A stretch of 64,000 nucleotides of DNA from assembly GCA_029204225.1 (NCBI GenBank), contig CM055112.1, positions 30,282,203-30,346,202 on the forward strand, in the 5' to 3' direction. Source of the DNA: Diphasiastrum complanatum. Taxonomy: Eukaryota > Streptophyta > Lycopodiopsida > Lycopodiales > Lycopodiaceae. Of this stretch, positions 8,640 to 54,083 are shown piece by piece. Under the pieces are notes generated by a model, which saw nothing but the letters and a program-made list of their open reading frames with translations, had not been told where the DNA came from and made no database searches. The translations under genes and the position numbers were made by a program. Each line of letters starts with the position of its first letter. Position 1 is the first letter of the stretch.

Positions 8640-9535
8640 ATTGACTCAAATACAATCTGTTTGTATGAAACCATTTGCCTAGAACCTATAAATTTTGTCT
8701 AAATCACATATAGATGAGATTGTGCAACTTCTAGATGAATTTTGTGATCATTTAAGCAATAAATGACATGTACACACAATTTGCCACAGGTCTAAGCACC
8801 CTACCTACGACTCTTCAAAAGCTTATAACTTTTGATTGGCTTATCCAACTGTCATGAATCAAATTGCATTAGATTCTACAATTTCTAGCTTTCTAGTGGG
8901 CTAATTTGCATGAAATTTGGATCTAAGGTGAGGGAGAACCACCAAACTGAAAATGGGCGGATTTCACACGTGCCAGCATGTGAAATTTCATACAGTACAT
9001 GATTTGGACCATTCAAAGTGGTTTGAAGCTCTAAATCACCAGAAAACTGCAAACTAGCTAGAAAGTAGAATCTAGACAATTCCTAGCTTGAAATCTGATC
9101 AAATCTACAAACTTGTTGATTAGATTTGCTTGTAAAACTTAGGTAGGCTCTAATACCATGCTGAATTCACATGTGTGGGACACCCTACACATGATCTCCT
9201 AAGCCAAATAATACCATAAAAATCAGACTAGCATTGGTTGACAATAGGAAAGCTGATCATACAAGAAATATTATTGTGTTACAAGCATGATCTGTCAGCA
9301 AAACTTAAGACTAAGCATTATAAATGCCTCAACTCGACTAGAGAGAGAAATTAGGAAGTACAAAACTCATGTAGAGAGAGAGGGCACAAAGAGCTTGTCT
9401 CCAAATTTGCATTACACACAAATTTCATCATTTTCTCAATGAGAGTACATCACATATATATAGATCCATGGACTCTCCTCCTACTTTGAGTTGAATTGGA
9501 GTTGTGGATCCACTTCTCAAGTTATCTAGACTTAT
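8640..9535 (-). mobile_element. Copia N: leader, primer site and partial 5' LTR (minus strand)
   Basis: Read on the minus strand, an LTR (about 9535 down to 9162, ending ...GTGTGAATTCA) is followed by CATGGTATTAGAGCC, a one-mismatch initiator-Met primer site, and then leader sequence to about 8640. The LTR matches the 3' LTR of Copia B (57040-57422): shared text includes the ctccatggatctatatatatgtgatgtactctcattgag region, in pieces shorter than the whole. Only the LTR end nearest the primer site is present. The LTR abuts Copia C. Confidence 0.75.
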
Positions 9536-48633: not shown

Positions 48634-49094
48634 TCCTCTTCTCTGCAAAGGTGCCAAATCAAAAGGGATATCCACATGTAGATTGTACAATGTCATTATC
48701 AAAAAAATAGTAGAGTAATCAGTTGCATCAAAGTACTATGACCGGATTCTATGAAGCAAAACAAAATACTCATCTTTGATTATATCGTATACTATGTACG
48801 ATCAATCCAATCTCCATGCTTGTATGCTTGATTCAAATTTGGAAAGGCCACTCATTTTTTCATTCCAATAGGTAGTTGGTGCTCATATTTCCATTCCAAG
48901 GTGATTATGGCGTTCATAATTGGAGATGGCACCCATATTTCCATTCTCGTGGAAGGAATGCATATGTAGACATTTTGCAATTTTTTTTTATTCAAATTTG
49001 GGGATGGCGGTCATATTCTAGATCCAGTGAAATATTGTCCTTTTCGTAACCAATGGAGGGAATATTTTTGACTTTAGTCAAGTTATACTTCGAA
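48634..49094. other. Spacer, nothing recognised
   Basis: A loose repeat of catatttccattcc occurs near 48880, 48935 and 48855; otherwise nothing. Confidence 0.5.
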
Positions 49095-49545
49095 CTATTT
49101 ACAATTCTTAACTGTGACTATAGACACTGTGGTTAGATCATTGGGAGTTGGGGAGGCCTCGGGAGTGGTGGAGGCAAGCAAATAAACAATATTGTTTTTT
49201 TTATATCCTACATGGCATTTCTTAAAGAGTCTTTTTGATATTGAGAACTCCTCTAATGTCAGCCTTGTTCCTTCTCTTTGGGTTGTACCTACATTCATAT
49301 GATGAATGCTTAAACCAGCATCTATCGGCTGTGTGTCCCGGCTTTTGACAGTGATCACAAGAAGAGGTTTGTCGATTGTTTCTACCTTTTGTCGAATACT
49401 TTGATTGAGTCTTGTCAAATCTTGGGTTGTTCTTATTCTTTTCTTTCTCCCTTGTGAAAAGGGCCTTCTCCTGGTCGCTGCTTCCTTCTCCCTCATCTCT
49501 CATTAGTCTCTCATCAGCAACAAGACTGATAGGTCGCTCGAACAA
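49095..49545 (-). mobile_element. Copia gag fragment with zinc knuckle, minus strand (fossil)
   Basis: Overlapping frames (49545-49222 and 49496-49095) carry EKALFTREKEKNKNNPRFDK, then SSCDHCQKPGHTADRCWFKH, a CX2CX4HX4C zinc knuckle. This is the C-terminal Gag region of a Copia family different from A, B and H. It abuts the LTR L copy at 49555. Confidence 0.8.
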
Positions 49546-50955: not shown

Positions 50956-52435
50956 AGGAACGAACAAGAGTGCACACGTTGATCCGATATTGTTAGGACG
51001 AGATTGAAATTTGTCGCGAGCACACGTTAGAAGTGGCTGATATCGATTCAGCGCGCCTGAATGACTCCGACTATGCACTATTTGGGAAGGCGCACGTCGA
51101 TTCGATATCGCGAGATAGAAATAAAACAAAAAGACTAGTGAGTTCAAAATAAAAGATCACGGAATCGAAATATGGCAAGTGGTGCCCATATTTATAGCCA
51201 ATTCATGTTGATCACAGCCATACATTTGTCAAATAACGAATTGAGAAACATAGTCTATATTTATCCACCAATCAGAGTGAGACAAATTTGTACCAACACT
51301 AGAATACATTAACTAGTCTATCACTAGATTTAACAAATCATCATTAGCCCTGACCCTAGAATTTGTACATGCGCTAGAATACATTAAATATTCAATCAGT
51401 AGCCTCCTCGAATAATCATTAAACAAATAATAAACAAATGATAAATGAACATCATTAAAAAACGTGTACAAGGAGAATTATTACAATCTCTTGCCCTATT
51501 TAAGCACCGTAAAGACTAGATTTTTTCTTTTGAGATAATGTTCATTCAGAACATTTTCATTAGTCATTCATAATGTGCTCCAATAACATTTTTTTGCGTA
51601 TTAGATATCGGATCAATGCGCTTGACAGAAGATGGTTATTCTCTATTTGGACTGCACACGTCGAATTGCTATTGCAGGAACAAAAAGATTTTTGAAATTT
51701 TGAAAACTATTGGACCCTATTATGCATGCTCAAAACTTGATTCGGTAGACTCTTCATATTGCTAAAAATTACGCAGAATCTATCGAGTCAAGCTCTGATT
51801 ATTCATATTTTGTCCAATATTTGTTCAGTGCGAGAGAATAGCACCTCTGGTTTTCACATGCTGTATATGCGCGTCGATTAAATATTGAATGAAATACTGG
51901 CATTTAGAATTTTCGAAAATCATAATGATTGGATATAAGAAAGATCAGATATTTAAAGCTTAACCTTGTCAGTTTTTGCAATAAATTGTAGATGTGACCA
52001 TACTTTTGTAGCTTTGATTGTACATGTGACCATACTTTAGTTAAAATTAATTCTAGTTTATTCGATATCGACTAATCATTTTGATGATAGATGGATATTA
52101 AGTTTAATTTGATTGACAAGCCTCAGAGTAATCATCATCGTAATCCGAGCCTCGGACATCCAACCCACTATGTTTGCAATCATTTCAGATTTTCTCTATA
52201 TATACTGATGGACAACGTTGAATTTTTTTGCTTAAAGTTCTTATAGTTCTCTACATCCATGCGATATCGATTCAACGTGTTTGAAACAAACTTCCTACGA
52301 TCCGCTATTACTCGCACACACCCATCCACTACCAACTATCGGTTTGGTTGAGCTCAGGTATCGGTTCGACGCGTTCGACCTGACTTCTGATCATGGGTTT
52401 TTCTTCATCACGCGTTGATCCGATATTGGAAATTA
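50956..52435. repeat. Spacer with recurring GATATCGATTCAACG-type motif
   Basis: The motif, in either orientation, occurs about ten times: cacgttgatccgatattg near 50977, gatatcgattcagcgcg near 51042, acgtcgattcgatatcg near 51091, gatatcggatcaatgcg near 51606, gcgcgtcgattaaatatt near 51864, ttcgatatcgacta near 52059, gcgatatcgattcaacgtg near 52261, ggtatcggttcgacgcg near 52357 and cgcgttgatccgatattg near 52411. The last copy ends eight bases before the ATG of the next gene. Spacing is irregular. No coding frame was recognised. Confidence 0.7.
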
Positions 52436-52810
52436 ATGGCATGGACCAAGCAAACAGCACGAGGCCACCCTGGTAGAATACCAATCTCAGGAGCGGGTCA
52501 TGGAAATCCACCACCACCACCTCCTCCTAGGCCAAGGGACAGAAAAAGCGACCCACCCTGGCTCAAGGATATTCAGAAGCTACATAAGACAAATAATCTT
52601 CTAATTCTGAATGCTCACATACAGAGATCCATCAGAGACGTTACAAGAAGTCTATCTGCAGATGTGAGATGGACGGTAACGACAATTGAGATGCTGCACA
52701 CTGCATATGAGGATTTCCAGGTGAAATTTTTTTTCAGATACTGTTGTTGCAGCTGTCCATGCCAAGAGGGTGACCATCATGCCCAAGGATTTCAACATTG
52801 TGTTTAGGCT
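52436..52810 (+). pseudogene. Histone H3-like domain of the fused gene
   Basis: The ATG at 52436 begins MAWTKQTARGHPGR. T3, K4, Q5, T6, A7 and R8 of the H3 tail are kept; R2 is W (TGG, one transition from CGG) and K9 is G. A run of seven prolines replaces the K14-K36 part. The fold part reads WLKDIQKLHKTNNLLI (H3 alpha-N, with K56 kept), IQRSIRDVTRSLSADVRW (alpha-1 and loop), TIEMLHTAYEDFQVKFF (alpha-2) and AAVHAKRVTIMPKDF (loop 2). The last contains eleven straight residues identical to canonical H3. The reading frame slips by one in an eight-T run near 52730. Tail marks K9 and K27 could not be carried. It is too diverged for a normal replication or H3.3 histone. Confidence 0.85.
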
Positions 52811-52855
52811 TCGGGACACATATTTGCAAAATACTTTAGACCTGCTCTCTCCTCT

Positions 52856-53377
52856 CCTCCAAAACAAGATTCAGAGAGGAGAAAACGAAAGCAATCTCAA
52901 CCATTCCGGCTTGTTATTTGTAAACAGAGTGGGAGTGTTTCAAAAAAGAGGAGGTCTCTTGACCCTCCAAATAAAGCGAGGGATTTTTCCAAGCCATCTC
53001 CTCTGGATGAGATTATTTCTTCTAGGCATTCTCCTCCCAATTCTCGTCCTAAGTTTCCTTATTCTCCTCCCAGAACTCCATCTTTACCTTCTCCTGCTAA
53101 ATCTTCCTCTCCTAATAAATCTCCTCCTCCTATTCCCATAAATATTAGTTCCCATCCTCCTGTTCTAGGAAATGATTTAGATGATTTTGTTAATGTAAAA
53201 GTAGAATCAATTTTGAATGACAATTTTTTTCCTGGTTTATTTGTATTACTTTCGTTACCCCCTGCACTTGCCTTTGTAAATACTCCTCAATATGTACAGT
53301 ATGACCAATTGTTAAACACGTATCTTAAAGTTTTAGGATGCCGACGACCAATGCTGGTCTCCCCATTTCTAGTTTAG
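52856..53377 (+). pseudogene. Basic, proline-rich linker of the fused gene
   Basis: Frame with DSERRKRKQSQPFRLVICKQ, then SGSVSKKRRSLDPPNKARDF, SPPRTPSLPSPAKSSSPNKS and DLDDFVNVKVESILND. The first part looks nuclear, the middle disordered. The end (VNTPQYVQYDQLLNTYLKVL) may be the first helix of a Ulp1 domain. It is in the same frame as the H3 tail but not as the HAKRVTIMPKD part. Confidence 0.5.
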
Positions 53378-53448
53378 ATACAAGTGAATTAGAAAGTAGG
53401 GATAAAATGCTAGGTGACAATGTAGGAGGTGGGGCCATTCAGTACTAG

Positions 53449-53790
53449 ATGGAGTTTTTTCAAACCCCATTTTTTATAGATGTAGCATTGTTTCTCTTTC
53501 AATTCAAGGTTGCATTTGATTTCCCTAATTTCAAAAGTCTACACGATGATATGCTCCAATATGTCAGACTAGGGACTCCAATTCTCGTGCTGCCATACAT
53601 AACAAAGTAAGTGTCTTTTTTTCAGATTTTATTATGTCGAATTTTTCATATGAATTTTGATTTCACATTGATTGTCATAAATTTATTGTTTTCTGATTGT
53701 AGTGATCATTGGAGCTTCTATGTGTTGTCCTTATATGTCAATAATGAGGGTGTATGTAATCTAGTTTGTTTAAAGATGAACTCTATTACA
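53449..53790 (+). pseudogene. Ulp1/C48-like protease part with one intron
   Basis: MEFFQTPFFIDVALFLFQFK then FKSLHDDMLQYVRLGTPILV and LPYIT lead to a GTAAGT donor at 53607. After the acceptor at 53702 the frame continues NDHWSFYVLSLYVNNEGVCN. In C48 proteases a line of the type I-P-V-N-x-x-H-W-x-L-x-V holds the catalytic histidine. The resemblance is short, and the other catalytic residues would lie beyond the Copia insertion. Other alpha-beta folds are possible. Confidence 0.45.
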
Positions 53791-54083
53791 CACACACACG
53801 AGGGATCTCTTATGGTCTCGAGTTTTTCTTCATCACCTTTCAAGAAGGATGGTTCATGGTATATCGACAGTGGAGCTTCCTCACATATGTGTAGCTCCAA
53901 GCATTCTTTTTCATCCATGACACCTTATGAAGGAGCCAAGAAGTCCATCTACATAGCAAATGATCATGAGTGTGCTATTGAAGACATAGGGACCATTCCC
54001 TTAAAGCTTTCATCATCAAAAGTTCTTTTTCTAAAGTACTTTTTGTTCCTAAGTTAACAAAAGATCTTACTAGTGTTGGGCAA

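Follow-up and report, generated by a model that had tools for sequence, protein, structure and literature searches.

What kind of gene once occupied positions 52436 to 53799 of the window, a 64,000-nucleotide stretch of Diphasiastrum complanatum DNA (C21:30282203-30346202 of a 1.74-Gb assembly, which was searched as the host genome)? The first-pass annotation of this stretch had seen here a histone H3-like domain apparently fused to a Ulp1-like protease, and had named two separate genes or a transposon cargo as alternatives. The fusion is supported by paralogues whose reading frame stays open between the H3 tail and an intron. The gene resides in a DNA transposon with several genes, so the fusion and the transposon-cargo readings both hold, whereas the two-gene alternative fails on the stop-free exon 1 and the shared intron. 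The identity of the gene and its mobility are direct observations and we regard them as nearly certain, with the element context partly deduced for the window's own family, F3. The locus is best explained as a dead transposon gene, and with the proposed mechanism included this account is more likely right than not.

The locus begins where it had been placed, at 52436; its end does not lie at 53790, the gene being recognisable to 53799. All of its parts are on the forward strand. The tail MAWTKQTARG, a proline stretch and the histone fold as far as helix 2 occupy 52436..52735 (PF00125, E 6.8e-8). A second H3-like piece in another frame (52734..52829) scores 1.4e-4 alone, below the cut-off, and the fold read across the frame break matches PF00125 positions 26-122 of 122 with an E-value of 4e-16. 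This second piece includes the exact H3 11-mer HAKRVTIMPKD (52758-52790), which lies in a frame different from that of the tail and whose sequence is identical in the canonical H3 of the host. A basic and proline-rich linker (52809..53338), traced by its reading frame and by alignment to the paralogue L046, returns to the frame of the tail. The first half of a C48-like domain (53329..53606) lies in the third frame and runs through the last bases of exon 1; it is 82% identical to L046, is covered by the match between the F3 and F2 profiles and contains an in-frame stop at 53446-53448. A GT-AG intron of 96 nt in phase 2 (53607..53702) separates it from exon 2 (53703..53799), which reads NDHWSFYVL...KMNS with the catalytic-His motif and is 39.5% identical to the corresponding F2 exon (E 4.7e-6). 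The tail, helices, 11-mer, basic segment, clean intron and NDHWSFYVL segment of the first-pass annotation were thus all recovered. The window has a single TKQTAR and a single HAKRVTIMPKD, and neither peptide arose in any of 100 dinucleotide-block shuffles.

The copy is broken and cut by a Copia element, as had also been described. In addition to the stop, the frame shifts within the H3 part and again around 53330; aligned with L046, the segment 52436-53338 can be followed in a single frame with one stop. Copia sequence starts at 53799 and truncates exon 2, and the alignments of F3 copies end exactly there in 9 of 14 loci, at 53798 and 53765 in two others and earlier in three. Upstream, F3-type element sequence extends well beyond the gene (51062..53799, forward strand), with 82% identity to L036 over 51062-53798. 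Its left limit was not reached, L036 being aligned from its first base, and the element-derived segment therefore begins at or before 51062.

Relatives of the gene are numerous in the host genome. The genome-wide counts given here come from scored matches and are lower bounds, and some matches lie on duplicate contigs. A PF00125 search in which the best 150 of 6,325 first-look candidates were scored gave at least 153 matches; among those listed, 13 canonical H3 at E 1e-45 are followed by dispersed, divergent H3-like frames. The window's own fold as query gave at least 150 matches at 81-93% identity (best 150 of 6,150 candidates). Three families can be distinguished. F1 (14 of 20 loci) starts with MARTKQTARD, followed by a long Q/P-rich insert and an H3 fold at the C-terminus, and is devoid of C48. 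F2 (6 of 20 loci) starts with MDRRKQTRRD, and its H3 fold is followed by a basic, proline-rich stretch and then by a C48 domain across three exons; the gene plan of F3 is as in F2.

Several lines of evidence show that the parts belong to one gene. Of the 20 F2 and F3 loci fetched, 6 can be read from the H3 tail as far as the intron without a stop (L018, L020, L024, L044, L045 and L046, with L044 and L045 near-identical), and these paralogues are not the separate short H3 genes of the two-gene alternative. All three exons are stop-free in the F2 loci L018 and L024. The clearest F3 frame, L046, runs for 417 aa, and is not fully intact because exon 3 has a stop and its acceptor deviates from the pattern common to the others. 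The place and phase of the window's intron are common to 12 other copies, and thus to 13 loci of two families. Of the F2 C48 exons, 150 were scored, and at least 17 of them have a scored H3 match no more than 2 kb away (0.05 expected; 137 of the H3 matches listed were used, and the 13 canonical H3 were excluded), all 17 on the same strand and 858-1028 bases downstream of the H3. An intact gene would be expected to encode one protein, in which a basic proline-rich linker joins an H3-like tail and fold to a C48 domain of Ulp1/SENP type spread over two introns.

The paralogues carry a complete core histone fold (PF00125, E 3.1e-20 in L046 and 4.7e-28 in L018), and identity to canonical H3 within the fold is 42-55% across F1-F3. 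Among solved structures, H3.Y comes closest to the window's H3 part (E 5.2e-16, with the alignment starting at residue 1). By sequence alignment, the equivalents of H113, D123 and R129, residues relevant to incorporation into nucleosomes, are kept in all three families. Most of the 24 readable tails retain the K4 region ARTKQTAR, which in F1 and F3 is the best-kept stretch of the tail; lysine 9 is absent from all 24 (23 copies and the window). Lysine 9 is present in the canonical H3 of the host genome and in a database relative, P0058. The hallmarks of CENH3 are a diverged tail and a longer loop 1; an origin from CENH3 is unsupported, the tail start being of H3 type and loop 1 of canonical length in F1 and F3, with one additional residue in F2.

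The C48 assignment comes from F2. Spliced L018 matches PF02902 with an E-value of 4.8e-11 (43.4 bits, cut-off 20.7), and the match runs from inside exon 1 to the Cys exon. A profile alignment of the C48 parts of F3 and F2 spans 200 columns (hhalign probability 99.3, E 8.6e-21). Against PDB, F2 gave weak sequence matches to SENP2 (E 0.021), Ulp1 (E 0.034) and SENP5, in a range of 0.021 to 0.75, with His-Trp, Gln and Cys-Gly in register with SENP2.

The F1 and F2 loci contain, in addition to the H3 gene, a transposase-like gene and two further conserved genes, B and C, which match no Pfam family and whose F1 and F2 versions are about 29-36% identical (L016, L018, L021, L025). Matched pieces of the two families are about 30-64% identical, and gene order and direction differ. 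The F1 copy L025, taken with L031, measures 8,955 bases, with ends CATTAGGGC... and ...GGCCCTAATG; the F2 copy L030, taken with L024, measures 9,305 bases, with ends CATTAGAGG... and ...CTAATG. The F1 end 32-mer has 653 exact occurrences in the genome and its reversed control has none. At least 22 of 120 scored F1-type transposase matches have a scored H3 within 6 kb (0.11 expected, with the 13 canonical H3 again excluded), on opposite strands in 21 of these 22 pairs. Mobility is directly visible at L014, where a 1,090-base insertion with F1 ends (784-1873, in the orientation of the H3 gene) interrupts the transposase gene of an F2 element for which L016 provides the empty site: one family has jumped into another. 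No target-site duplication was found in the three elements with both ends seen, the L014 insertion among them. The F1 element ends (L025 1459-1490) are nearly palindromic (GGGCCCTTTTT...AAAAAGGGCC), and a hairpin could form. Elsewhere, at C1:67871296-67872435, two F1 ends face each other 1,140 bases apart, probably as another short non-autonomous derivative.

The transposase is predicted to have a core of RAG1 fold. This assignment is based on a model of the core, as the whole-protein model of the relative P0041 was poor (pLDDT 52.9), and identity to RAG1 in the structural alignment is 12-14%. Profile searches with the transposase gave no Pfam family, nothing significant against PDB profiles (best E 0.064) and only coiled-coil chance matches in NCBIfam. 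RAG1/Transib transposases have D, D, E with C(2)C and H(3-4)H; here Asp 18, Asp 113 and Cys 133/136 are nearly invariant, and HITH at 339 corresponds to H(2)H. A candidate for the catalytic Glu, proposed from the sequence, lies in GMEKSH in the next exon.

Synonymous and nonsynonymous changes were compared after exclusion of pairs with fewer than 4 differences, gapped matches, query coverage below 90% and identity below 68%; the pairs are not independent. For the H3 part, dN/dS is 0.40 in F1, 0.17 in F2 and 0.19 in F3 (first half of the fold); the choice of F1 and F2 copies on their histone score biases such H3 values downward. The C48 values, which are not subject to this choice, include 0.21 for F2 exon 2 and 0.31 for the F3 C48 half.

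Outside the host genome, the window gene as query gave 37 protein database matches at E up to 1, all histone-bearing or histone-like, with 21-35% query coverage. An F2 query gave 16 matches, all histone, of which only P0058 extends past the fold into an extension that looks related. P0058 combines MARTKQTMRK, an H3 fold and a long extension in which a Pfam search gave no C48 match. P0048 is a fern protein model (Adiantum nelumboides) that combines a transposase piece with an H3 piece (PF00125 6e-9) and a weak C48 trace, which at 13.4 bits does not reach the cut-off of 20.7; its PKQEDDHSCGW region is 50% identical to the F2 Cys exon across 22 residues (E 1.1e-4). When 15 H3 folds were placed in a tree, F2, F3, P0058 and P0048 were grouped with support 0.945 and F1 came next at 0.747, a grouping that is a hint only because the branches are long. 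P0048 and P0049 from the same fern contain transposase pieces fused to unrelated or element sequence and look like mis-annotated element fragments.

The window also contains a second insertion of this kind, separate from the F3 copy. It is the left end of an F2-type element on the reverse strand (48634..49258), 93% identical to L029 and 83% to L030, with its terminal CATTAG at the 49258 side (compare the L030 end at base 9106) and the first transposase exon at 48634-48696, located by a tblastn match to the start of the F2 transposase. When the window was searched with 18 element peptides, matches were confined to the H3, the C48 exon and 21 residues from the start of the transposase, and the last of these is part of the F2 fragment, outside the F3 copy.

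What could such a protein do for a transposon? The H3-like part would place it in or on the chromatin of the element, perhaps in nucleosomes. Its tail, which keeps the K4 region, would have no K9 to carry the heterochromatin mark, and the protease part could take SUMO, or a tag related to it, off the silencing proteins of the host at that site. The element might thereby stay transcribed, in the manner of VANDAL elements with their VANC proteins, and its putative RAG1-fold transposase would move it between CATTAG...CTAATG ends, with no visible duplication of the target site. It seems possible, at somewhat less than even chance, that the product is a chromatin protein opposing host silencing in this way. 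A broader proposal, which we advance still more tentatively from the sequences, is that a RAG1-fold transposon lineage of plants may encode its own H3, with a K4 end and without K9, to which several families have attached a SUMO-type protease. The element would build or mark chromatin of its own that could then not be written by K9-methylation silencing, the protease would strip SUMO from silencing proteins, and the fusion would be old and common to the host and ferns.

Several observations weigh against this interpretation. None of four spliced F3 copies (L046, L034, L044, L047) matches PF02902 alone, so that F2 is the only link between the window's family and C48, and the protease assignment of the first-pass annotation holds for F2 and not for F3 taken by itself; F3 copies alone also gave no PDB match. 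The usual catalytic Asp is not seen in the C48 part, Met or Asn of KMNS standing in its place by alignment, which puts the predicted protease activity in doubt. The Cys is lost in L014, L020 and L036, and a six-frame PF02902 search of the host genome gave only 3 exonic matches. The F1 H3 gene lacks C48, which indicates that the protease is not essential to this kind of gene, and P0058 has K9. In the short stretches fetched for F3, neither transposase nor gene C was found, and gene B was present in 1 of 14 loci (L042). Some dN/dS values are also high: 0.49 for the C48 end of exon 1 in F2, 0.75 for the F1 tail insert, 1.63 for the F1 transposase (few differences) and 3.16 for the F2 linker (one pair).

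The main rival explanation makes the H3-C48 protein a partner in the transposition machinery. Alone or together with H4, the H3 fold would bind or wrap target nucleosomes or the ends of the element, and the C48 part would process element or host proteins, much as RAG2 is the chromatin-reading partner of RAG1. The PHD finger of the RAG lineage reads H3K4me3, and the K4 region is the part of the tail best kept in F1 and F3. The RAG1-like core of the modelled transposase and the linkage of an H3 gene under selection to the transposase gene point in the same direction, as does the PHD-finger partner of the RAG transposon lineage described in an excerpt of PMC4411706. However, genes B and C have no domain recognised by Pfam, and a PHD or kelch partner was not found. 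This explanation appears rather unlikely, if less so than the others considered here.

The remaining alternatives are considerably weaker. Some large DNA viruses have histone genes and Ulp1-like proteases, and a captured viral gene or an integrated virus could account for the combination, but the transposase alignment gave 23 pattern matches and no confirmed relative among viral contigs, and the units are about 9 kb long with inverted repeats and precise ends; a viral origin is very improbable. Equally slight is the chance of two separate genes or a chance neighbourhood, which the three frames of the window copy and the F1 genes without C48 might suggest. It is rejected on the stop-free exon 1 of six loci, the PF02902 match of L018 that starts inside exon 1, the intron position, the shuffles and the uniform strand and spacing of the near pairs. 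That host H3 and ULP sequences were captured and carried as passengers without a role is disfavoured and improbable. Many copies are broken, and plant transposons are known to capture host sequences, Ulp1 included, according to an excerpt of PMC13317346; yet the H3 and C48 parts have low dN/dS in F2 and F3, the H3 fold is kept by three divergent families and C48, with the same intron position, by two.

If the proposed antisilencing role is correct, a mobile element would fight silencing by supplying a histone unable to carry the silencing mark, and the H3-C48 protein would be a natural predicted chromatin-targeted protease to study. The RAG1 fold group is best known from animals and fungi, and a RAG1-like transposase here would extend it. 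No transposon that counts a histone among its conserved genes is known to us, and word searches of open-licence PubMed Central found no report of an H3 encoded by a transposon or of an H3 fused to Ulp1.

Comparison with known systems brings out what is shared and what is not. With histone H3 and its variants the element protein shares a full PF00125 match, the ARTKQTAR tail start and HAKRVTIMPKD, but it lacks lysine 9 and has either a large insert (F1) or a C-terminal protease (F2, F3). With SENP/Ulp1 (Peptidase C48) it shares the PF02902 match and the His-Trp, Gln and Cys-Gly residues in register, and differs in having no Asp at the usual place, in its fusion to H3 and in being transposon-borne. 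The transposase shares its modelled core fold with RAG1/Transib. From these and the wider CMCT group (CACTA, Mirage, Chapaev, Transib, Plavaka, ESTA) it is set apart by its low identity to RAG1, the lack of a Pfam match and the CATTAG ends. To our knowledge no CACTA-type transposase structure has been solved, and the fold match therefore does not place the transposase inside CMCT. Transib duplicates 5 bp of its target, a feature absent from the three elements with both ends seen; one 5-base example is given in an extract of PMC4411706.

The nearest precedent is VANC/KIU of the VANDAL elements (Kaonashi; non-TIR MULEs of flowering plants), likewise plant multi-gene DNA transposons with an Ulp1-type domain outside the transposase gene, as described in part of PMC13317346. 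According to an extract of PMC10398659, VANC proteins remove silencing, and the same part of PMC13317346 attributes to some of them an Ulp1 domain of unknown function. The element described here differs in carrying its Ulp1-type domain on an H3-like body, in its terminal inverted repeats and in its transposase, for which a VANDAL/MULE identity was rejected in view of the absent Pfam family and the RAG1-like modelled core. Fungal and oomycete DNA transposons with TET/JBP or SET genes, reported in an excerpt of PMC12730594, also carry genes that act on epigenetic marks. In those elements the cargo consists of enzymes for DNA or histone marks, whereas here it is a histone.
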